Shown here in pieces: positions 434 to 21,212 of a DNA stretch of 22,223 bases. Below the pieces are notes generated by a model, which saw nothing but the letters and a program-made list of their open reading frames with translations, was not told where the DNA came from and did no database searches. The DNA is from a bacterium (GTDB lineage Bacteria; CAIWAD01). The stretch is from contig JAUIFJ010000046.1 of NCBI GenBank assembly GCA_030429345.1, forward strand, positions 1-22,223. Reading direction: 5' to 3'. The position numbers and the translations under genes were made by a program. The first letter of the stretch is position 1, and each line of letters starts with the position of its first letter.

Positions 434-2401
434 ATGTCCGCCTTCCGCCGCCTGTTGATCCTGTTTTTCGCCTTGCCCCTCTTCATTGCCTGCGGCGGCG
501 GGGACAAGGCCCGCTACGATACCGGGCCGATCATGCCCGTCGACGAGGGCGTCAACAGCTTGCAGGTCTGGCGCGATGCGGGCTTCGAGGTGCTGGAAAC
601 CCCCGCCGGCGCCCTGCCGCAAATCCCAGCCGCCCAGGGCGGAGCAGGATTCGAGGAGCTCGCCGCGGCCGATGGCTGGGTCACGGAAACCGAGTATCAC
701 AGCGACGGCAGCACCGAGGCCCTGCCCGGCGGCCAGATCCGCGTTTACATTTCCGACTATCCGGCAACCACCCGCACCGAGGGCAAGGATACACACAACG
801 TCAACAACAGCATGTTCCGCCGCATGCAGTATGAGACGCTGCTCAACATCGATTCGGAAAGCCTGAAGTTCGTTCCCGGGCTGGCCAGCCACTGGAAGAT
901 CGTCGACCACGAGGACGGCAGCCAGAGCTACTTCTTCCGCATCGACCCCGATGCCCGCTGGCAGACCGGTCACCGTGTGACAAGCGCCGATGTCGTCGCC
1001 ACCTGGAAGCAGCGCGTCGACCAGGGCATGCTCTACCCCGCGGACGAGCTGACCTACAAGGAATACTCCGAACCCGTGATCCATTCGTCCTACATTGTCG
1101 AGGTGCGGACGGACAAGAAGAGCTGGCGGCGCTTCATGACCTTCGCGGCGGTCACCTGGATCTACCCGGACCACCTGATCGGCGGGCTGAGCGGAAAGGA
1201 CTTCCTCGAGCAGTACCAGATCCGCCCCCTGCCCGGGACGGGCCGCTACCTGCTCAAGGAGCGCGACCTGAAGCCTCCCAACAGCCTGACCTACACCCGC
1301 GTCGCCAACTACTGGGACAAGGACAACCCCAAGAAGGCCGGGCAGTGGAACTTCGCCCGCATCAAGTTCATCACGCTGAACGAGGAGACACTGATCCGCG
1401 AGCGCTTCAAGAAGGGGCAGCTCGACATGTACCTTGTCACACAATCCAAGTACTGGATGAAGGAGCTCGTGCCGGAAAGGGTGCACCAGGTCGCGAAGGG
1501 CTGGATCCAGAAGAAGCAGGTCTACAACAAGAAGGCCAACGGCATGCAGGGCCACTTCTTCAACCTGCGCAAGCCGCCCTTCGACGATATCCGCGTGAGA
1601 CAGGCCATCGCGCATCTCAACGACCGCGAGACCATGATCGAGAAGCTCTTCTACAACGCCTACGAGCCGGCGCACAGCATTTTCCCCGGCATGGAATTCG
1701 AGTACCCGGGCAACCCGAAGATCACCCATGACCCGGAAAAGGCGCGCCAGCTGCTGGCCGAGGCTGGCTGGAGCGAACGCAACGACGAGGGCTGGCTGGT
1801 CAAGGACGGGCAGGTCTTCGAGGTGGAGATCATGTACGACGGCTCACCCTCTTCCGAGCGCGTGCACACGGTCTTCCAGGAGAACTGGGCCGAAGCGGGC
1901 ATCAAGATGAACCTCAAGTCCACCACCTGGGCCACGATGATGCAGATCATGGACAGCCGCGAGTACACCTGTTACTACGGCGCCTGGTCCGGCAGCCTTT
2001 ATCCGGATCCGCAGGCCACCTGGCACAGCAAGTACGCCGATCGCGACAACTCGAACAACTTCACCGGTTTCCGCAACGCGGAACTGGACAGCCTGCTCGA
2101 GATCTACGAGGTCACCGACGACATCCAGGAACGCATCGGGCAGCTGCAGCAGATGGACCGGATCCTCATCGAATCCCAGGTCGGCGCCCTGGCCTGGTAC
2201 GGCCCCAACGAGCGCATTGCCCACTGGAACAAGTTCGGCATGCCCGAAGGCGTGCTCAACAAGACCGAGGACTGGCGCCGCCTGATCCGCCTGTGGTGGT
2301 ACGACGCGGACAAGCATGCCGAACTCAACGAGGCCATTGCCGCCGACGCCGAGATGGACCTGCCAAGCCTGAAGAAGATCACCTACTGGCTGGAGCACTG
2401 A
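434..2401 (+). CDS. Peptide ABC transporter lipoprotein substrate-binding protein (SBP family 5, YejA-like), copy 1
   Basis: This is a 655-residue extracytoplasmic binding protein that should capture oligopeptides or similar solutes for the permeases encoded downstream. The signal sequence [20 protein letters not shown] ends in a lipobox (LFIAC), so Cys20 is the likely lipid anchor. An acidic linker with K-A-R-Y-D-T-G-P follows. The family 5 domain covers roughly residues 110-600, with typical stretches such as [21 protein letters not shown] and [19 protein letters not shown]. The ATG at 434 was chosen over an upstream TTG at 392 because GGAG at 424-427 is 6 nt away and the signal peptide starts there. 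It is about half identical by eye to the next gene. The link to YejA rests on the YejB/YejE-like permeases and on the greater length than OppA/DppA. The substrate is not readable from sequence. Confidence 0.93.
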
Positions 2402-2782: not shown

Positions 2783-4753
2783 ATGAAGCTTCGCTCCCTG
2801 CTCACCCTTGCCCTGTCCGCGGCCCTGCTGGTCGCCTGCGGAGGCGAAAAGAAGGCCCGCTACGACACGGGTCCCGTAATCACCAAGGACCTGTCCGTCA
2901 ATTCCAAGGATTACTGGCGCAGCACCGACTTCGAGGTGGTTGATGTCCCGGACGGGGCGCTTCCCGATGTCAGCGCCGAAGACGGCGGAGCCGGTTTCGA
3001 GCAGATCGCGGAAGCCGATGGCTGGATGACCAAGACGGATGTCGTCAGCATCGGTTCGCCGAAGGCCAAGAAGGGCGGGCTGATCCGCTTCGCCTTGAGC
3101 GAGTACCCGGCCACGCTGCGCAGCGAAGGCAAGGATTCCAACACCAGCGTCAACCAGATGTACAACGGCCTGATGTACGAAGGACTGGTCGGCGTGGATC
3201 CCACCACCCTGGACTTCATTCCGGGCCTGGCCAGCCACTGGAAGGTCGAGCAGCACGAGGACGGCACCCAGACCTTCTGGTTCCGCATCAATCCCGAGGC
3301 CCGCTGGCAGACCGGACACCGCGTCACCACCGCCGATGTCCTGGCCAGCTACAAGCAGCAGATGGACGACGGCCTGAAGGTGCCCTACGCTCTCGTTCTC
3401 TATGGAGAGTACAGCGAGCCCGAACTGCACAGCCCCTATATCGTCAGCGTCAACACCAAGGAGCTCAACTGGCGCCACTTCCTGTATTTCGGCGCCTCCC
3501 TGCAGATCTATCCTTCCCACATCCTCGATGGCATGACGGGCGCCGAGTACATGGAGCAGTTCCAGAACAAGGTCATGCCCGGCACCGGCCCCTACGTGCT
3601 GCGCATGGAGGATGTCAAGCAGGGCAACAGCATTACGCTGACCCGCCTGAACAACTACTGGGACAAGGACAGCCCGGCCAACGTGGGCATCAACAATTTC
3701 GACCGGATCAAGATTGTCATCGTCCAGGATGAGACCCTGAACCGCGAGAAGCTCAAGAAGGGCGAGCTGGACTTCTACGTGGTCGGCCAGGCCAAGTACT
3801 GGGTCAAGGAATTCATCGCCAGCGAGATCGATCAGGTCGACAAGGGCTGGATCCAGCGTCGCCGCGTCTTCAGCGACAACCCCAACGGCATCAACGGCTT
3901 CTGCTTCAACATGCGCGAGGCGCCCTTCGACGACATTCGCGTGCGCAAGGCCTTCGCCCATGTGATGAACCGCGAGAAGCTGATCGACAAGCTCTTCTAC
4001 GACCAGTACCTGCCCATGTACAGCTACTACCCCGGCAGCATCTACGAGAGCGACAACGTGGCGACCTACCCCCACGACCTGGACAAGGCGCTCGAGCTGC
4101 TCGGCGAGGCCGGCTGGAAAGAGCGGGACAACGAAGGCTGGCTGGTCAACGCCCAGGGTGAGCGCCTCGAGTTCGAGTTGATGATCGACCAGAGCCCCAC
4201 CTGGGAACGCGTGATGACCGTGATCCAGGAAGACTACAAGCAGGCCGGCATCAAGCTGAATCTCAAGCCGACCACCAGCGCCACCATGTTCCAGATGCTG
4301 ATGGAGCACAACTTCAAGCTGCACTGGCAGAACTGGGGCGGCCTGACCTTCCCCAATCCGGAATCCTCCTTCCATTCCAACATTGCCGACCAGGTGAATT
4401 CGGGCAATGTCAACGGCCTCAAGAACGCCCGTCTCGACTCCCTCTGCGAAGTATACAACGTGACCTTCTCGCAGGCCGAGAGGAATCGCCAGATCCAGCA
4501 GATCGACGACATCCTGACCCGCGAAGTGCCTTACGTGCTCGGCTGGTACGGCCCCTACAGCCGTGTCGCCTACTGGAACAAGTACGAGCACCCGGAAGCC
4601 GGCTGGAGCCGCACGGGCGACTGGCGCGCCGCGGTCCAGTACTGGTGGTACGACGCCGACAAGCACCAGGCCCTGCGCGAGGCCGTCGCCAACGGCCAGG
4701 GCATGCCCATCGGCACGGAAGACGTGACCTTCTGGCCGGAATACCAAGACTAG
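2783..4753 (+). CDS. Peptide ABC transporter lipoprotein substrate-binding protein (SBP family 5, YejA-like), copy 2
   Basis: This 656-residue paralogue of the preceding gene has the same layout. The signal peptide ends in lipobox LLVAC (Cys19), followed by the shared K-A-R-Y-D-T-G-P segment. The SBP_bac_5 domain includes KKGGLIRFALSEYPATLRSE near residues 95-115, [34 protein letters not shown] and the closing [12 protein letters not shown] at 2773-2776 sits 6 nt before the ATG. It has diverged from copy 1 throughout, so the duplication is old, and differing pocket regions could mean differing peptide preference. It lies 66 bp upstream of the first permease gene, separated by a hairpin, which fits higher expression of the binding protein than of the membrane subunits. 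Family assignment is firm; substrate is unknown. Confidence 0.93.
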   Translation: MKLRSLLTLALSAALLVACGGEKKARYDTGPVITKDLSVNSKDYWRSTDFEVVDVPDGALPDVSAEDGGAGFEQIAEADGWMTKTDVVSIGSPKAKKGGLIRFALSEYPATLRSEGKDSNTSVNQMYNGLMYEGLVGVDPTTLDFIPGLASHWKVEQHEDGTQTFWFRINPEARWQTGHRVTTADVLASYKQQMDDGLKVPYALVLYGEYSEPELHSPYIVSVNTKELNWRHFLYFGASLQIYPSHILDGMTGAEYMEQFQNKVMPGTGPYVLRMEDVKQGNSITLTRLNNYWDKDSPANVGINNFDRIKIVIVQDETLNREKLKKGELDFYVVGQAKYWVKEFIASEIDQVDKGWIQRRRVFSDNPNGINGFCFNMREAPFDDIRVRKAFAHVMNREKLIDKLFYDQYLPMYSYYPGSIYESDNVATYPHDLDKALELLGEAGWKERDNEGWLVNAQGERLEFELMIDQSPTWERVMTVIQEDYKQAGIKLNLKPTTSATMFQMLMEHNFKLHWQNWGGLTFPNPESSFHSNIADQVNSGNVNGLKNARLDSLCEVYNVTFSQAERNRQIQQIDDILTREVPYVLGWYGPYSRVAYWNKYEHPEAGWSRTGDWRAAVQYWWYDADKHQALREAVANGQGMPIGTEDVTFWPEYQD

Positions 4754-4819: not shown

Positions 4820-6337
4820 ATGACCACATATTTCATTCGCAGGCTGCTGCTCATGATCCCGACCTTTCTCGGGATCACGCTGGTCGCCTTCACGGTGATC
4901 CAGTTCGTGCCCGGCGGGCCGCTGGAGCAGGAAATGATGCGCCTGCGCGGCGCCATGGCCGGCGGCGAGGCCGGAGCCGGATCCGGGGACAACACGGGCG
5001 GCACCACGGCGATTCCGGCCGAAGCGCTGGAAGAGATGAAGGCCTACTACGGCTACGACAAGCCGATCCTGCTCAACTTCAAGGTCTGGAGCCCCGGCAA
5101 GCAGGTCGAGGAGTACTTCGAACTCATTCCCCGGGAAGAAGAGATCACGGTCCTCGAGGACGAGCTCGGCGGGCTGATCGAGGAGATGAAGACCGTCGAC
5201 GGCCGTCAGGGACACCTGGACCGCGACGAGGTCGAGCGCCTGCGCGGCGAGATGGACGCGGTGCGCTCGGAGATCACCGATCTGCGAGATCTGATCGACG
5301 GCGAGCGTAGCGACGTGATCGCCACCGCCGAAATGGCCCTGCCCTGGCTGAAGCCGATCGCCCTCGGCGAAGGCGGCGTGTCGCGCCTGCAGCAGGAAAA
5401 GGCCATCGACCTGATCATCAAGCGCGAGAAACTGCCCGTCTGGACCAACCAGGAATTCGAGCGCAAGTTTGCCGAAGTCCAGAAGTGGGCCGCCGACAAC
5501 GACCCCCAGCCCTCGAGCTTCGTCCCCAAGATCTGGCGCACTTTCACCTATGGCCGCTACGGCTCCTGGCTGATCCGCATCGTGCAGCTCGACCTGGGCA
5601 AATCGCACCGCTATTCGCGGCCGGTGTGGGACGTCATCAAGAGCAAGTTCCCGATCTCGATCTACTTCGGCGTGATCGGTCTGCTCCTGTCCTACGGCAT
5701 CTGCATTCCATTGGGCGTCTGGAAGGCGGTGAAACACAACAGCCGCTTCGACACGGCGAGTTCGGTGATCATCTTCGTCGGCTATTCGACGCCCGGCTGG
5801 GCGCTGGGCGCCGTGCTGCTGGTGCTGCTCGGCGGCGGCAGCTTCCTCGACGTCTTCCCTCTGGGCGGTTTCCGCAGCGAGGACTTCGAATACCTGAGCT
5901 TCTGGGAGAAGGTCAAGGACCAGATGCATCACACCACCCTGCCGCTGATCTCCTGGAACATCGCCTCCTTCGCCAGCCTGACCGTGCTGATGAAGAATTC
6001 GCTGATGGAGAACCTGAGTGCCGACTATGTGCGCACGGCCTTCGCCAAGGGCCTGAGCGAGCGGCGCGTGGTCTTTCTGCACGCCCTGCGCAACAGCCTG
6101 ATCCCCCTGGCCACCGGCCTGGGCACGATCATCGGCGTGATCTTCGCCGGCAGCTATCTGATCGAGAAGGTCTTCAACATTGACGGCTTCGGCCTGCTGG
6201 GTTTCAACAGCCTGGTCAACCGGGATTATCCGGTGGTGCTGGCCAACATGGTCATCGCGGCCGTGATTCGTCTCTTCGGCAATATCCTGTCAGACATCAT
6301 CTACGCATCCATCGATCCACGGATCCGATTCAAATAG
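4820..6337 (+). CDS. yejB: Peptide ABC transporter permease, YejB-like, with a large extra coiled-coil-like segment
   Basis: This is the first membrane subunit of the importer, 505 residues; E. coli YejB is about 364 and DppB about 339. Residues 2-30 are the first helix (FIRRLLLMIPTFLGITLVAF), followed by the PGGPLEQ motif. Residues 70-85 (EEMKAYYGYDKPIL) match the YejB-type YGFDKPI region. An acidic, heptad-like stretch at about 100-165 and a further linker to about 245 follow, not found in standard permeases. The canonical core then resumes: DLGKSHRYSRPVWDVI (258-273), helices from 281 onward, the EAA loop YVRTAFAKGLSERRVVFLHA (403-422) and FGLLGFNSLVNRDYPVV near 457-473. The ATG at 4820 is preceded by AAAGGCAGG. 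The reading frame is clean, so the insertion is not a frameshift artefact. I recognise YejB-type motifs from memory; OppB/DppB is the broader family. Confidence 0.93.
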   Translation: MTTYFIRRLLLMIPTFLGITLVAFTVIQFVPGGPLEQEMMRLRGAMAGGEAGAGSGDNTGGTTAIPAEALEEMKAYYGYDKPILLNFKVWSPGKQVEEYFELIPREEEITVLEDELGGLIEEMKTVDGRQGHLDRDEVERLRGEMDAVRSEITDLRDLIDGERSDVIATAEMALPWLKPIALGEGGVSRLQQEKAIDLIIKREKLPVWTNQEFERKFAEVQKWAADNDPQPSSFVPKIWRTFTYGRYGSWLIRIVQLDLGKSHRYSRPVWDVIKSKFPISIYFGVIGLLLSYGICIPLGVWKAVKHNSRFDTASSVIIFVGYSTPGWALGAVLLVLLGGGSFLDVFPLGGFRSEDFEYLSFWEKVKDQMHHTTLPLISWNIASFASLTVLMKNSLMENLSADYVRTAFAKGLSERRVVFLHALRNSLIPLATGLGTIIGVIFAGSYLIEKVFNIDGFGLLGFNSLVNRDYPVVLANMVIAAVIRLFGNILSDIIYASIDPRIRFK

Positions 6338-6347
6338 GAGCCGCACG

Positions 6348-7394
6348 GTGGCCCAGAAAACCGCATCCCCGTCGATCTTCGCCAAGCGCTGGCGAAAGTT
6401 CAAGAGCATGAAGCGCGGCTATGTGAGCCTGCAGATCCTGCTGATCACCTATGGCCTGTCCTTCCTGCTTCCCTTCTTCGTCAGCAACAAGGCCCTCATC
6501 GTGTCCTACGAGGGCGAGTGGCATTTCCCGATGTTCGGCTACATCAGCGCCTCCGACCTCGGCCAGGAGCGCATCGGCGAGGCCAACTACCGCGAGCTGA
6601 AGGAGCTCTACAAGGCCCGGGACGAGGGCAACTGGGTGCTGATGCCCCTCTATCCCTACGGTCCCAAGGAGTCGCTGCTGGAAATGGACGGCACGCCGCC
6701 GCATCCGCCCAGCTCCTCGCACTGGATCGGCACGGACGACCGCGCGCGGGATGTCTTCGCGCGCCTCGTATACGGCTACAAGGTCTCGATCTCCTTCGCG
6801 CTGATCGTCACGATCATCGCCTACATCATCGGCGTGAGCATCGGCGGCATGCTGGGCTACTTCGGCGGCCTCTTCGACATCACGGTCCAGCGCTTCATCG
6901 AGATCTGGGGCTCGATCCCCTTCCTCTTCACGATCATGATCCTCAGCTCGCTGATCCAGCCCAGCTTCTTCATGCTGGCCGGCCTGCTGATCGCCTTCGC
7001 CTGGATGGGCATGACGTATTACATCCGCGGAGAGTTCTACCGCGAGAAATCGCGCGACTACGTGCAGGCCGCCATCTCCATGGGCGCCAGCGACCGCCGC
7101 GTGATCTTCAAGCACATCCTGCCCAACAGCCTGACGCCCGTGATCTCCTTCATGCCTTTCGCCATCGTCGGCAACATCAGCGCGCTGGTCTCGCTGGACT
7201 TCCTGGGCTTCGGCCTGCCGCCGGAGGAGCCGTCCTGGGGCAGCATGGTCAAGGTGGGCATGGCCAACATCACCGACTGGTGGCTCGTGCTGGCGCCGCT
7301 CGCGGCCCTGTTCGTGACACTCCTGCTCGTGGTATTCATCGGCGAGGGCATCCGCGAAGCCTTCGATCCCAAGGTCTATTCGCGGTTGAGGTAA
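6348..7394 (+). CDS. yejE: Peptide ABC transporter permease, YejE-like
   Basis: This 348-residue protein is the second membrane subunit, pairing with the 505-residue permease. A cytoplasmic N-terminus with KRGYVSLQI leads into the first helix (about 25-48), then NKALIVSYEGEWHFPMF. That segment and the long periplasmic stretch ending in SSSHWIGTDDRARDVFARL match the YejE type rather than shorter OppC/DppC proteins. Five core helices follow, with the EAA loop YVQAAISMGASDRRVIFKHI and the conserved SLDFLGFGLPPEEPSWG. The end, FIGEGIREAFDPK, is also YejE-like. The GTG at 6348 is supported by TAGGAG at 6335-6340, which overlaps the stop codon of the upstream permease, so the two are translationally linked. 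Confidence 0.94.
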   Translation: MAQKTASPSIFAKRWRKFKSMKRGYVSLQILLITYGLSFLLPFFVSNKALIVSYEGEWHFPMFGYISASDLGQERIGEANYRELKELYKARDEGNWVLMPLYPYGPKESLLEMDGTPPHPPSSSHWIGTDDRARDVFARLVYGYKVSISFALIVTIIAYIIGVSIGGMLGYFGGLFDITVQRFIEIWGSIPFLFTIMILSSLIQPSFFMLAGLLIAFAWMGMTYYIRGEFYREKSRDYVQAAISMGASDRRVIFKHILPNSLTPVISFMPFAIVGNISALVSLDFLGFGLPPEEPSWGSMVKVGMANITDWWLVLAPLAALFVTLLLVVFIGEGIREAFDPKVYSRLR

Positions 7395-7397
7395 GGG

Positions 7398-8415
<1,018 letters not shown>

Positions 8416-8426
<11 letters not shown>

Positions 8427-9453
8427 GGACCTGCTGCTGAAGGTGGAGGACCTCCACGTCCACTTCCCGATCCATGGCGGCCTGATGCTGCGCAAGGTGG
8501 CCGAGGTGCGCGCCGTCGACGGCATCAGCTTCGAACTGAAAAAGGGCGAGACCCTGGGCCTGGTCGGCGAATCCGGCTGCGGCAAGACCACGGTCGGCCG
8601 CGCCATCGTCAACGTGCTGCGCAGCGGCAGCCCGGATGTCGAGATCAGCGGCAAGCTGCTCTTCAACTCGGACAAGGGCTGGGTCGATCTGGCGCATCTG
8701 AAGCGCCGCGAGATGCGCCCCTACCGCAAAGACATCCAGATGATCTTCCAGGATCCCTTCTCGAGCCTCAACCCGCGCATGCTGGTCAAGGACATCATCG
8801 GCGAGCCCCTGGAGATCACCAATCCCGGCATCAAGGCTGCCGAAGTCACCGAGCGCGTCCACTGGCTGCTGGAAAAGGTGGGCCTTTCCGGCGAGCAGGC
8901 GCTGCGCTACCCGCACGAGTTCAGTGGCGGCCAGCGGCAGCGCATCGGCATTGCGCGCAGCCTGGCGACCAATCCGAAGCTGATCGTTGCCGACGAGCCC
9001 GTATCGGCGCTGGACGTGTCGATCCAGGCCCAGGTGATCAACCTGCTGCAGGATCTGCAGGAAGAATTCGACCTGACCTTCATCTTCATTGCCCATGACC
9101 TGAGCGTGGTCGAGCACCTGAGCGACCGCATTGCCGTGATGTATCTCGGCAGCATGGTCGAGCTGGGCGAGGCGCAGCAGGTCTACCGCAAGCCGACGCA
9201 CCCCTACAGCCGAGCCCTGCTGGACGCCGTGCCCCTGCCGGACCCCACGCGGGTCAAGACCAAGGATCGCCGCCTGCTGGAAGGCGACGTGCCCAATCCG
9301 ATCAACAAGCCCAGCGGCTGCTCCTTCCGCACCCGCTGCCCCATTGCCAAGCCGGAATGCGCCCAGAATGTGCCCCCCGTCGTCGAGGTGGGACCGAACC
9401 ACTTCGTCGCCTGCCCGCATGTGGATGTGGATCTGCTGGACCAGACCAAGTAA
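8416..9453 (+). CDS. Peptide ABC transporter ATP-binding protein, OppF/DppF-like
   Basis: This 345-residue second ATPase completes the transporter as a heterodimer with the preceding subunit. Motifs: Walker A GESGCGKT (51-58), Q-loop Gln112 in [12 protein letters not shown], signature FSGGQRQR (169-176), Walker B LIVADE (189-194), His227 in IAHDLS, and the C-terminal Cys-containing extension (C302, C308, C315, C333). The start at 8416 was chosen because AGGAGG at 8401-8406 precedes it at 9 nt and the protein begins with a normal ABC N-terminus; the frame is open further upstream, but that part is the other gene read out of frame. It overlaps the previous gene by 11 nt, so the two are coupled. 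It is the last gene of the importer locus. Confidence 0.95.
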
Positions 9454-12974: not shown

Positions 12975-13020
12975 TGCGGCCGCCATTCTTGTCGAGAGTG
13001 GCGGCCGCATTCTTCCCTTG
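12975..13020 (+). terminator. Rho-independent terminator of fumC
   Basis: TGCGGCCGCCA at 12975-12985 pairs perfectly with TGGCGGCCGCA at 12999-13009. The stem continues inward through a G-U and three more pairs to loop TGTCG. TTCTTCCCTT follows directly. It starts 13 bp after the fumC stop. Confidence 0.88.
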
Positions 13021-13131
13021 CCCTCCAGACCCGCCCTTCCCAGATTGAAACTCCTGCCAGTCCCCCGGGCAGAGGACGACGCCTTGGCGTCTCCAGCGCG
13101 GCACTTCCATTCAAACGACAAGGTATGCACG

Positions 13132-16100
13132 ATGACGATGCTACTGCGCGCCCTCGCGGGACTCCTGATCGCGGCAGGCTGCGCCTCCGCCCAGTCCATT
13201 GAGATCCAGTCCCTGTCTCCTGCCCCTTTCGAGAACTACGCGGATGAGCAGACAGTGATCGAGGTCGAGTTCGACCAGCTCCTCGACGGCGCTTTCCTCA
13301 ACGACACGACCTTTGTCGTACGAGGAAGCCAGAGCGGGCCGATCGCGGGAAGCTATGGCGGCGCGGCCGGACTGACCGCGAGTTTCACGCCCCTTGAACC
13401 CTACCGCTCCGGTGAGACCATCTCCTACACCTTGACGACGGGCCTGCGCAGCACGGACGGGAACACCCTTGCCCGCGGGCACAGCTATTCCTTTCGCGTG
13501 GCATCCGCTCCCCCGGAGCCGGGCAGCGTCTACTCGCAGCGGGTGATTACCGGCACCAGCAGCCAGGGCGAGGACCTGCGGGTCATGGACTACGATTTCG
13601 ACGGCGACCTGGATGTGCTGCACGCCAGCGAGGGCCTTCCCGAACACATCTATGTATCCGAGGCGACGGGAAGCCACGAGTACTGCACCTGGCCCACGGG
13701 AGGCAACTTCCGCCAGCTGGCGGTCTTCGACATTGACGGCGACGGCGACTACGACAACTTCGGGGCGACAGGATCCTTCGACACGGAACTCAACTGGTTC
13801 GAGAACGTGGACGGGCCGCCCTTTGTCGAGCGCTTCATCACCTCGCGGGACCCCTGGACGATCGCCGGCGGAGACCTGGACAGCGACGGGGACATCGATG
13901 TTGTCTCACCGACCCTGATTCCGAATCGCGTCTACTGGTACGCGAACGACGGCGTGGGGAACTTCAATGGCGGCGCACAGATCCCGTCGAGTTTCGACGG
14001 CGGCAGCGATTCGCATTTCCTGGTGCGAGACATCAACGGCGACGGGGCCATGGACATTCTGGCCTTCCACCGCGACAACTTCGATCTCGTGTGGTACGAG
14101 AACGACGGCGCCGAGAACTTCAGCGAGCACCTGGTGCACGCCTCCGACGATCGCGGCCGCATCGAGTGCGTCGACCTGGACGACGACGGCGATGTAGACA
14201 TTCTCTGGGCCAGCACGGAGAATTCCCCGGCGGTCTTCCTGGCCTGGTTCGAGAACGACGGTAGCGAGAACTTCAGTTACCATCCCCTGACCAGCGTCGC
14301 CGGCGGCAAGCTCTTCGTGATCCAGGCTGCCGACCTGGACGGGGACATGGACATGGACCTGCTGGCGGGCGGCTTCAAGTATCTCAACGACGGGTCGGAG
14401 ATTTTCACCGAAAGCCCGATCGGCCGGGGTCTGGGCCTGGGCAACAGCCAGTATGCCAGGGGCCTGGATACGGCCGACATGGACGGAGACGGCGACCTGG
14501 ACATTGGAGTACAGGGTCTATTCGCCGTCAGCTGGTACGAGAACGGTCCGGCGCTCGAGCTGCTGGGCACGGTGCCGTCACACGGCGCTTCTGCCGCGGC
14601 CGCGAATGCGAGCATCGAACTGCTCTTCAGCGAGGCCATTGACGTGTCGACAGCAGGCGCGGAGTCCATTTTTATCCTTAGCGACCAGCGCGCCCGGGTG
14701 GAGGGCGAATTCAGCCTGGCGGACGGCGGAACGCGCGTCGTCTTCACTCCCGACGAGCCCTACCGTCCGGGAGAGTGCATCGAGGTCTCCGTGCACGCCC
14801 GCCTGCGCTCGCTGGCCGGCAAGGCGCTGGAAGTGAATCAGGGCTTCAGTTTCACGGCAACCGCCGCGGAGACCGTGGATCCGGCTTTCACTCCGCATGT
14901 GATCCATTCCTTCAGCAGCAATGCTTCAGGCATGGACCTGGCGGACATCGACGGCGACGGCGACCTGGACATTGCCGCCACAAGCTTCAACGAGGTCGCC
15001 TGGGCAGAGAACACGGGAGGCGCCTTCACGGTCCACTCTGACAGCTCGACCTATGCCCCGATCGGGATCCACGTGGTCGACATGGACCAGGACAACGACA
15101 TGGACTTCTGGGTCGACAACAGCAGCAGCAACCAGGGCCGCGCCGAGCTGTGGGTCAATGATGGCAGCCAGGTCTTCACGCCGGAGGACCACTCGGGGTC
15201 GCGCAACAGCTTCGAGATCAGCGACCAGGACCGGGACGGGCAGCTGGACAACCTCTGGAGCTCGACCTTCAACGAACGCCTCTACTGGAATTTCGGCGTC
15301 TGCGGCGGCCTCGGGAGCTACGGCCTGGTGCAGACCCTGTACGCCAAGGACGGGATCAGCGAGGATTTGAGCGGCGATCGCGTCGACGACCTGCTGGCGG
15401 CGACAACGGTCGGTACGCTGGCCCTGCAGGACGGGGACTCGAAACTGTTCTTTTTTGTAGACACGGTGGCCACCTTGAACGCGAAGGCCCTCGCCCTGGG
15501 CGACCTGGACCAGGACGGCGATCTGGATCCGGTGGTGGTCGAAACCTTCAACCGCGTTGCCTGGTATCCCAACGAGAGCGCCGGGGATTCGCTGGCCTTC
15601 GGCTCCGGGCTCGAGATCGGCCCGTTGGGCTCGGATCCGAGGGATGTCGCCCTGGCCGACCTGGACGGGGATGGCGACCTGGATGTCGCGGCTGTGACAC
15701 GCAACGGCGACGAGGTCGTGTGGTACATGAATCGTCTCAACGGGCCGGAGGCGGACTTCGGACCCCAGCAGGGCGGCCCCGGCATTGCCGACGGCCCGAT
15801 CCTGCTCCGCGCCGGCGACCTGGACGGCGACGGCGACATGGACCTGGCCACACTCAGCGACGGCGACGATCGGCTGATCTGGTGGGAGAACACCGGCACG
15901 ACCACGGTCCGCGAGCCCGCAGTTGCCACACAGCCCAAGAGCCTTCGCCTGCACCCTGCGGCGCCGAACCCCTTCAATCCGACGACGACCCTTCGCCTGG
16001 AAATGCCTCGCGAAGGGCGTGCCGATCTCAGTGTATACAACACCCTGGGCCAGCGGGTCCGCACCCTGCTCGACGAGCATCTGCCCGCCGGCGAAGCGGC

Positions 16101-16215
16101 CATCACCTGGGATGGCCTTGGATCACAGGGGCAGGCCCTGGCCAGCGGCATGTATCTCGTGCGGTTGCAGGCGGAAGGGGACGTGCGTGTGAGGAAGGTG
16201 GTGTTGTTGAAATGA
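13132..16215 (+). CDS. Secreted FG-GAP/VCBS-repeat protein with two Big_5-like domains and a C-terminal FlgD-Ig/sorting-type domain
   Basis: This 1027-residue extracellular or surface protein starts with a signal peptide (1-20, ending ASA). A Big_5-type Ig-like domain (about 22-125) precedes a first FG-GAP/VCBS array (about 143-473), a second Big_5-like domain (473-580) and a second array (about 590-930). About 14 Asp-rich loops of the DxDGDGDxD kind probably bind calcium and build beta-propellers. Residues 937-1027 form a FlgD-Ig / type IX-like C-terminal domain with PNPFNPTTTLRLEMP, VYNTLGQRVRTL and GMYLVRL. The repeated (Big_5 + array) unit suggests duplication of a half-protein. The ATG at 13132 has AAGG 8 nt upstream; another ATG lies at 13138. 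Binding or adhesion is likely; no catalytic domain was seen. Export by T9SS is inference. Confidence 0.9.
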   Translation: MTMLLRALAGLLIAAGCASAQSIEIQSLSPAPFENYADEQTVIEVEFDQLLDGAFLNDTTFVVRGSQSGPIAGSYGGAAGLTASFTPLEPYRSGETISYTLTTGLRSTDGNTLARGHSYSFRVASAPPEPGSVYSQRVITGTSSQGEDLRVMDYDFDGDLDVLHASEGLPEHIYVSEATGSHEYCTWPTGGNFRQLAVFDIDGDGDYDNFGATGSFDTELNWFENVDGPPFVERFITSRDPWTIAGGDLDSDGDIDVVSPTLIPNRVYWYANDGVGNFNGGAQIPSSFDGGSDSHFLVRDINGDGAMDILAFHRDNFDLVWYENDGAENFSEHLVHASDDRGRIECVDLDDDGDVDILWASTENSPAVFLAWFENDGSENFSYHPLTSVAGGKLFVIQAADLDGDMDMDLLAGGFKYLNDGSEIFTESPIGRGLGLGNSQYARGLDTADMDGDGDLDIGVQGLFAVSWYENGPALELLGTVPSHGASAAAANASIELLFSEAIDVSTAGAESIFILSDQRARVEGEFSLADGGTRVVFTPDEPYRPGECIEVSVHARLRSLAGKALEVNQGFSFTATAAETVDPAFTPHVIHSFSSNASGMDLADIDGDGDLDIAATSFNEVAWAENTGGAFTVHSDSSTYAPIGIHVVDMDQDNDMDFWVDNSSSNQGRAELWVNDGSQVFTPEDHSGSRNSFEISDQDRDGQLDNLWSSTFNERLYWNFGVCGGLGSYGLVQTLYAKDGISEDLSGDRVDDLLAATTVGTLALQDGDSKLFFFVDTVATLNAKALALGDLDQDGDLDPVVVETFNRVAWYPNESAGDSLAFGSGLEIGPLGSDPRDVALADLDGDGDLDVAAVTRNGDEVVWYMNRLNGPEADFGPQQGGPGIADGPILLRAGDLDGDGDMDLATLSDGDDRLIWWENTGTTTVREPAVATQPKSLRLHPAAPNPFNPTTTLRLEMPREGRADLSVYNTLGQRVRTLLDEHLPAGEAAITWDGLGSQGQALASGMYLVRLQAEGDVRVRKVVLLK

Positions 16216-19576: not shown

Positions 19577-20191
19577 ATGGAATCAATTGAAAATAAAGTA
19601 CGTAAAAGGATCTATGGCATGGGGAGGGGCTGGGTATTTTCTCAAATCGACTTTGCTCACCTTGGATCCCGGTCAGCCATTGATCTTGCCTTGCATCGCC
19701 TGATGCGCAAAGGGACCATTCGACGAGTTCTGCGGGGGCTTTACGACTACCCGCGAACCAGTTCTCTGCTTGGCCAGGCCCTGGGTCCCGACATCCATCA
19801 GGCGGCACAGGCCCTGGCGCGGAAATTCGGCTGGCGGATTCAACCCAGCGGGCAAACCGCTTTGAACGTTCTAGGGCTATCCACGCAACTGCCGGGGCGC
19901 TACGTCTATCAATCCGATGGGCCCGGCCGAAGCTACCCGATTGGAAAACAGGAAGTGCGTTTCGAGCATACCGTTCTCAGGGAAGTCGGCTTCAAAAGGA
20001 TGGAAAGCGCCCTGCTTGTGAGCGCACTGAAGGTCCTAGGAGCCGATCGCGTGGATGCCACGATTGAAGCACAGCTCCGGGAATGGCTGAAGCCCAGCCT
20101 GCGAAAGCCTGTGCTCAAGGACACAAGCACCGTGCGGGGCTGGGTGCGTGAGATCCTGCGCCGGATCTGCCTGGAGGGCAAGAATGGATAG
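19577..20191 (+). CDS. AbiEi-family antitoxin (DUF6088-type), type IV toxin-antitoxin
   Basis: This 204-residue protein has an N-terminal winged-helix region (about 1-60: VFSQIDFAHLGSRSAIDLAL, RLMRKGTIRRVLRGLYDYPR), typical of AbiEi antitoxins, followed by the longer C-terminal antitoxin part with GQTALNVLGLSTQLP. In characterised AbiE systems this protein represses its own promoter and counters the toxin without binding it directly (type IV). GGGAA at 19566-19570 lies 6 nt before the ATG, and a strong inverted repeat sits just upstream. It overlaps the toxin gene by 8 nt. The family call rests on motif style plus its partner; the lower-GC 5' end suggests horizontal arrival. Confidence 0.88.
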   Translation: MESIENKVRKRIYGMGRGWVFSQIDFAHLGSRSAIDLALHRLMRKGTIRRVLRGLYDYPRTSSLLGQALGPDIHQAAQALARKFGWRIQPSGQTALNVLGLSTQLPGRYVYQSDGPGRSYPIGKQEVRFEHTVLREVGFKRMESALLVSALKVLGADRVDATIEAQLREWLKPSLRKPVLKDTSTVRGWVREILRRICLEGKNG

Positions 20192-21212
20192 GGTCGCCCG
20201 CCTGCCGGAAGCTGAACGGCGCGAGCTGTTCACGGAAACCGCCAACCAACGCGGTATGACACCGGGCATCGTGGAAAAGGACTTCTGGGTCTGCTGGGTG
20301 ATGGACCGCCTCTTCCGCTCTCCCCTGGGCGAGATCCTGCTCTTCAAGGGTGGAACCTCCCTCTCCAAGGTCTATGGCCTGATCGAGCGCTTCTCCGAAG
20401 ACATCGACCTGATCCTGGACCCGCAGGTCCTGGGGCTGGAATTGTCACACGGGCTTGAAGACCCTGGGAACCAGCGCTTGCAGGCATCGCGTCGATTTCG
20501 AAGACTCAACGCCGCCTACTTGCGGGAGCACCTGGTTCCTGCCTTGCGTACACACATAGGCGAACACTGTGAAGTCAAGGACCTGGCGGAGCGTGAGCCG
20601 GGGGAACACCCTCCTCAGGAGTTGAAGCTTCGTTACCCGGCCACTTTTCCTCCCGGTTATCAGACACCGGAGATCAAGCTGGAGATCAGTCCGCTGGCAC
20701 TGGCCTTGCCCTATGAGCATGCCAGCATTCAGCCCTACTCGGCGCAGAGCTTCCCCCGGCTTTTCGAGTGGGCGGAATGCCCCGTACGGGTCATCAAGGC
20801 AGTACAGACCTTCTGGGAAAAGGCGACCATTCTCCATACCCTGGCCCATTTGCCTGAAGATCGCTCCGTACCCCAGCACCACTCACGCCATTTCTACGAC
20901 ATTGCCCGACTGGCCAAAACGACTGTGAGACAACAGGCGCTGGATGCGCTGGTCCTGCTTCGGGAAGTGGCAGACTTCAAGGCGACCTACTATTCCCAGC
21001 CCGTCGCACGCTACGACCTGGCTCGTGATCCGCAAAGCCTGAAGTTGGTTCCCGGCACTCGTGTGCTTCGCGAACTGGAGCGCGACTACCGGAGTATGAG
21101 AGAAATGATCTACGGTGAAGTGCCGGACTTTCGCACCATTATCGACCAGCTTCGTGAGCTGGAAGCAGAAATCAACCAGTTGGAACTTCCCAACCCTGTG
21201 AGCCAGGAATAA
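20184..21212 (+). CDS. AbiEii-family nucleotidyltransferase toxin
   Basis: This 342-residue nucleotidyltransferase-fold toxin (PF08843-type) has the active-site signature FKGGTSLSKVYGLIERFSED followed by IDL: GGTS at 56-59 and DxD at 73-75. Further landmarks are KLEISP (165-170), a Lys-rich helix near VIKAVQTFWEKATIL, and SRHFYDIARL (234-243), the family's usual late motif. Known members bind GTP and stop growth; mycobacterial relatives (MenT) modify tRNA by adding nucleotides. It starts within the antitoxin gene with GGAGG at 20173-20177, 6 nt before the ATG. An upstream in-frame start at 20148 lies inside the antitoxin gene and lacks such a site. All catalytic residues seem present, so the toxin looks intact. 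Phage defence by abortive infection is the classic role. Confidence 0.92.
   Translation: MDRVARLPEAERRELFTETANQRGMTPGIVEKDFWVCWVMDRLFRSPLGEILLFKGGTSLSKVYGLIERFSEDIDLILDPQVLGLELSHGLEDPGNQRLQASRRFRRLNAAYLREHLVPALRTHIGEHCEVKDLAEREPGEHPPQELKLRYPATFPPGYQTPEIKLEISPLALALPYEHASIQPYSAQSFPRLFEWAECPVRVIKAVQTFWEKATILHTLAHLPEDRSVPQHHSRHFYDIARLAKTTVRQQALDALVLLREVADFKATYYSQPVARYDLARDPQSLKLVPGTRVLRELERDYRSMREMIYGEVPDFRTIIDQLRELEAEINQLELPNPVSQE

Follow-up and report, generated by a model that had tools for sequence, protein, structure and literature searches.

A predicted helical domain inserted between the scoop motif and helix α3 of a YejB-like peptide importer permease

The permease gene of a bacterial peptide-importer operon encodes a protein that is clearly longer than E. 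coli YejB, which raises the question of where the additional residues are placed, how they fold, and whether they could act on the binding proteins encoded beside them. The operon lies in a stretch of 22,223 nucleotides (contig JAUIFJ010000046.1 of assembly GCA_030429345.1, positions 1–22,223; GTDB lineage Bacteria; CAIWAD01), called the window below. An initial annotation, made from the sequence alone, had described the extra part as a heptad-like segment after the first helix, outside the membrane, and as a possible docking arm for two lipoproteins.

The operon and its long permease

All genes of the operon lie on the forward strand, and together they specify a type I ABC importer of (oligo)peptides. 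Two genes encode binding-protein lipoproteins of the SBP_bac_5 type: S1 (434..2401; PF00496, E = 8.7e-59; lipobox FIA-C, nt 491–493), which starts at the ATG at 434 within a program-called TTG open reading frame of 392–2401, and S2 (2783..4753; PF00496, E = 1e-59; lipobox LVA-C, nt 2837–2839). They are followed by the YejB-like (OppB/DppB-type) permease (4820..6337; PF00528, E = 5.5e-32) and by a YejE-like second permease of ordinary length (348 aa; 6348..7394; PF00528 and NF011596). Profile matches identified an OppD/DppD-like ATPase (7398..8426) and an OppF/DppF-like ATPase (8317..9453), the latter being a program-called frame whose true start is probably downstream of 8317. Elsewhere, the window encodes a 1065-aa surface-type protein (13018–16215) with Ig-like (Big_5) domains, FG-GAP repeats and a C-terminal FlgD_ig domain, and a likely type IV toxin-antitoxin pair (19577–21212), made up of a DUF6088/AbiEi-like gene and, after it, an AbiEii-type nucleotidyltransferase gene.

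The frame of the YejB-like permease begins with ATG and is open throughout 4820–6337, confirming a protein of 505 residues without a frame break. It passes the BPD_transp_1 profile (PF00528) with 111.4 bits against a gathering score of 26.4. The best-scoring NCBIfam model is YejB (NF011712), and since the 269.2 bits fall below its curated cut-off of 445, we use the name YejB-like only. The core of the protein matches the E. coli DppB sequence with E = 4.7e-41, residues 3–35 and 247–505 aligning with DppB 3–35 and 66–338, while the middle matches nothing. The predicted structure matched DppB (8z1v_A) in Foldseek with E = 2.7e-13 and TMt 0.78; TM1, the scoop region, α3 and TM2–TM6 follow each other as in the solved protein, and an RTA coupling loop is present within LSADYVRTAFAKGL.

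Borders, membrane side and predicted fold of the insert

Alignments, AlphaFold2, heptads and hydropathy delimit an inserted extracytoplasmic helical domain at residues 88–246 (nt 5081..5557, forward strand). Residues 1–90 (59%) and 246–505 (70%) align with a 346-aa relative from genome G011 that has no middle part. The insert, of about 159 residues, is in frame and is absent both from the closest relatives outside the family (346–347 aa) and from true YejB (364). The excess amounts to 160 residues over the G011 protein and 141 over the 364-position YejB model, for which the earlier estimate was about 140. In a multiple alignment, ordinary relatives have 28 residues in the interval from YYG-DKP to DLG-S, where the window permease has 188. 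The initially proposed limits, nt 5117–5560, captured an insertion, although 5081–5557 describes its borders better, and it does not directly follow the first helix, from which it is separated by the scoop-motif region (about residues 32–87). At 5051–5120 and 5540–5590, proteins of the window's family carry LLNFKVW after DKP and RYGSWL after the insert; the RY-x-x-WL motif of uninserted relatives is thus doubled in weak form around the insert, possibly a trace of how it arose. GC3 is equal in insert and core (0.88). Searches of solved structures with the insert sequence gave chance coiled-coil matches only (best E = 0.11), Pfam gave no real match up to E = 10, and Foldseek with the insert alone gave no match below E = 0.001.

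In the solved E. coli DppABCDF complex, a periplasmic scoop motif (DppB 32–62) between TM1 and α3 binds the cleft of DppA, its α1 touching the C-lobe and its α2 the N-lobe (PMC12136057). The equivalent region of the window permease, residues 32–87 (4913..5080, forward strand), matches DppB 32–62 in position and is predicted by AlphaFold2 to consist of a helix (34–48), a Gly-rich loop of low confidence and a second helix (67–77). Ordinary homology resumes at the α3 equivalent, residues 246–255 (RYGSWLIRIV; 5555..5584, forward strand). Because the flanks align to DppB 3–35 and 66–338, the insert falls between α2 and α3. No hydrophobic stretch was found between TM1 and TM2, and none within the insert itself (maximum KD19 0.93); Arg7-Arg8 stand at the start of TM1, and positive charges mark the segment that follows TM2. 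Homology to DppB, hydropathy and charge together predict that the insert lies outside the membrane, between scoop and α3 and beside the docked binding protein, in agreement with the side initially proposed.

For the fold prediction, AlphaFold2 was given 38 aligned sequences, only three of which cover the insert. Mean pLDDT for the full permease was 86.6, most blocks of ten residues from 91 to 230 scored 84–97, and helices were placed at residues 92–102, 104–128, 135–168, 170–181, 189–203, 213–226 and 234–244. When the insert was predicted alone, nearly identical helices were obtained (mean pLDDT 81.5), except in the last 17 residues. The insert is predicted, with high confidence, to be all-helical: an antiparallel coiled-coil hairpin (residues 104–168; nt 5129..5323, forward strand) followed by shorter helices. 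In helix 135–168, V/I/L/M/F occupy 89% of a/d positions compared with 8% elsewhere, and its heptads beat shuffles of the helix's own letters in the window (p = 5e-5) and in each of the two relatives (p about 5e-4), whereas those of helix 104–128 reach p = 0.006 in the window and are weak and not significant in the two relatives. The heptad-like character first ascribed to the whole extra segment thus applies to the hairpin, most strongly to 135–168, while 170–244 appears helical but not coiled coil. VIA-align matched the insert model to coiled-coil hairpins (5nfd and others) with Z of 8–10, a range common for helical bundles; these are common hairpins, among them the LipC adaptor and seryl-tRNA synthetase arms, and they cover model residues 1–88, barely touching the C-terminal bundle. 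With a length of only 38–51 Å, the hairpin cannot span the periplasm.

Distribution of the insert and other inserts in the same loop

When used as a query, the insert found only three of 386 genomes, all of the window's own family: the window's genome (G000), where only the window's own copy was found, G001 and G003. The insertion is therefore not general to ordinary YejB homologues. Both relatives have permeases of 499 aa with an insert of 152 residues. Identity is 40–42% in the insert compared with 79% in the core. Between G001 and G003, pairwise dN/dS comes to about 0.36 for the insert against 0.15 for the core; pairs with the window were near saturation and were not used. These values point to weak purifying selection on the insert. 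Its net charge varies among the three sequences (−12, 0 and +7) and, given this and the fast evolution, it is unlikely that docking uses a conserved charged face. Length (152–160 aa), fold and heptads are kept across two genera, and all three sequences have the same residue at several W, P and R positions. Core trees computed without inserts place the window's family near two close relatives that have no insert, G011 and the Calditrichota protein L012; on the core tree, the insert/no-insert label needs three changes, at least two of them by the best-supported branches alone.

A strong YejB-type match was present in 48 of the 386 genomes of our broad sample, and eight of these 48 had open frames of at least 426 aa, including the three of the window's family. 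In other lineages, this loop holds unrelated inserts, the shortest of 76 and the longest of about 283 residues. Inserts of about 75–80 residues, beta-like by eye, occur in Neomarinimicrobiota, G004 and G108; others measure 98–223 residues (L010/G199, L131 and the Bacteroidia locus L042), about 108–111 residues (three Planctomycetota permeases) or 164 residues (G386, apparently helical). G222 has a helical, HEAT-like insert of about 283 residues, a relative of which lies on broken contigs of G388. The corresponding permeases have 425–430 aa in Neomarinimicrobiota, 452–453 aa in Planctomycetota and 570 aa in Bacteroidia, and G222 has a 655-aa frame. YejB proteins of 720 aa in some Neomarinimicrobiota loci were set aside, their 2.1-kb match spans being two permeases joined.

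Several of these loci have features of their own. The three Planctomycetota permeases (L013:10001-11359, L011:10001-11359 and L015:4153-5508) carry, in the scoop-α3 loop, a domain of biotin/lipoyl-like (barrel-sandwich) type (Biotin_lipoyl in L013, 28.4 bits against a gathering score of 22.1), and a modified-lysine motif is not evident in these inserts. The HEAT-repeat-like residues are encoded at L133:1925-3889 (G222) and at L145 and L146 (G388). The 570-aa Bacteroidia permease (L042:10001-11710), with its 223-residue insert, has two adjacent binding-protein genes.

Beta-type inserts begin after RYLIWLG, a few residues further along than the window's insert, which begins before it; because the entry points differ, the gain in the window's family was probably independent of the beta-type gains. 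The G222/G388 permeases branch far from the window's family in the core tree, and comparison of the window insert with the C-terminal half of theirs gave P = 0.006 in hhalign with a probability of only 6%. Both sets of inserts share the flanks KPVILN-RI and F-x-x-RYG-WL, and a distant relation of the window's insert to the C-terminal half of the G222 insert is possible. More broadly, we tentatively suggest that the scoop-α3 loop of YejB-like permeases may be a plug-in site in which lineages independently placed different domains (a coiled-coil hairpin, a beta domain, a biotin/lipoyl-like barrel, HEAT-like repeats) that would tune the docking of binding proteins.

Binding proteins, possible roles and known importers

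S1 and S2 are 50% identical. By identity (59–60%), S2 is nearest to the binding proteins encoded next to yejB in G001 and G003 and to the one of G002; in the tree it groups loosely with these. S1 groups (99/100) with binding proteins encoded away from yejB in G001 and G003. These S1 orthologs, L126 (G001:C44) and L127 (G003:C156), are unlinked to the YejB-like permease gene and are orphan binding proteins, presumably of that same transporter. The operons of G001 and G003 combine an insert-bearing permease with one binding-protein gene each, so that only the window has both members of the family pair in the operon; no further SBP_bac_5 gene was found in G000. Since G001 and G003 hold the S1 ortholog elsewhere, one translocator, presumably working with at least two binding proteins, seems to be characteristic of the family as a whole, and old.

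An N-terminal arm of 43–44 aa with a conserved RF/YDTG...W...GF/YE motif is also common to the family's main binding proteins. In S1 it runs for 44 aa from the lipid Cys to the GALP motif (491..622, forward strand; RYDTGPI...EGVNS..W...GFE), and S2 has an arm of 44 aa with the same motif (2837..2968, forward strand). The arms of the G011, L012 and G004 binding proteins are 27–30 residues long and lack the family motif, so that the family arm exceeds that of the nearest uninserted relatives by about 13–16 residues. Arms of similar length but other sequence also occur in some Acidobacteria, so that length by itself does not set the family apart. We regard the arm as a candidate partner for the insert; because both were inherited within one family, they represent a single co-occurrence and not a correlation.

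Sequence comparison and structure prediction support an inserted domain of helical fold, with the place and side described, confined to one family; we infer that it may contact the binding protein and affect docking or transport. In the reading we favor (probability roughly 0.5), the insert serves as an additional contact surface by which the docked lipoprotein is held or oriented, for which MalF-P2 is a precedent. The YejB-like permease has gained, in its scoop-α3 loop, a predicted helical domain made of the hairpin and a short helical bundle, placed outside the membrane next to the expected site of the docked binding protein. Contact would be made with a lobe of the lipoprotein or with the N-terminal arm peculiar to the family, at the stage when the scoop motif reaches into the cleft of the binding protein and the peptide moves into the channel.

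The main rival is a tolerated ornament: the loop would accept domains cheaply, and the insert would fold without a strong function. The unrelated inserts of other lineages, together with fast evolution, weak constraint and unconserved charge, fit this explanation, but a length, fold and heptad pattern little changed across two genera, a dN/dS below 1 and invariant W, P and R positions speak against it, and we consider it rather unlikely. Coiled-coil hairpins are also common devices for protein–protein contact, and the generic hairpins retrieved by VIA-align would suit an insert that binds peptidoglycan or an outer-membrane or envelope protein, or that dimerises transporters through its coiled coil. 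That seems improbable: no partner gene was found, the hairpin is too short for the outer membrane, and the matches reflect a common arrangement and carry no functional evidence.

Least probable, in our view, is that the insert exists so that one translocator can serve two different lipoproteins. All three insert-bearing genomes do have at least two related binding proteins and one YejB-type permease, and G011, the nearest uninserted genome, has one binding protein. Against this, G001 and G003 encode the second binding protein away from the operon, L025 combines three binding-protein genes with an uninserted permease, and a single such gene is found in most operons with beta inserts, those of Neomarinimicrobiota included. 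Across the wider set, insert presence and binding-protein number do not go together, and the initial proposal of a docking arm for two lipoproteins was not supported in that form.

Natural inserts next to the scoop, which arose several times and with different folds, are ready-made variants for studying how binding proteins are held and released, and a tool for asking how one translocator serves several of them. Extracytoplasmic accessory domains on ABC importer permeases are already known, and the insert is another of these; periplasmic insertions in peptide permeases were not found in the literature searched, in which subscription journals were hardly covered.

Compared with known systems, the window permease resembles E. 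coli DppB/OppB (8z1v, 8z1y, 8z21) in core fold, RTA coupling loop and TM1-scoop-α3-TM2 order (for DppB, 30% identity and 2.6 Å over 277 columns), and differs in its 159 extra residues between scoop and α3 and in the greater length of its Gly-rich scoop loop. E. coli YejB (364 positions) lacks the insert, and the E. coli Yej system has a single fused ATPase, YejF, whereas the window operon has separate OppD-like and OppF-like genes. Inserts of other phyla lie in the same loop and are likewise extracytoplasmic and lineage-specific, and homology to the window's insert is not demonstrable. The insert is also comparable to MalF-P2 (MalF 91–271), a large periplasmic permease insert that contacts the binding protein MalE, both being large extracytoplasmic insertions on the binding-protein side of a type I importer permease (PMC3150292). 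Unlike the beta-rich MalF-P2, the window's insert is all-helical by prediction. The two also differ in site, as the window's insert is located between TM1 and TM2, and MalF-P2 elsewhere in its permease, between TM3 and TM4 of MalF.
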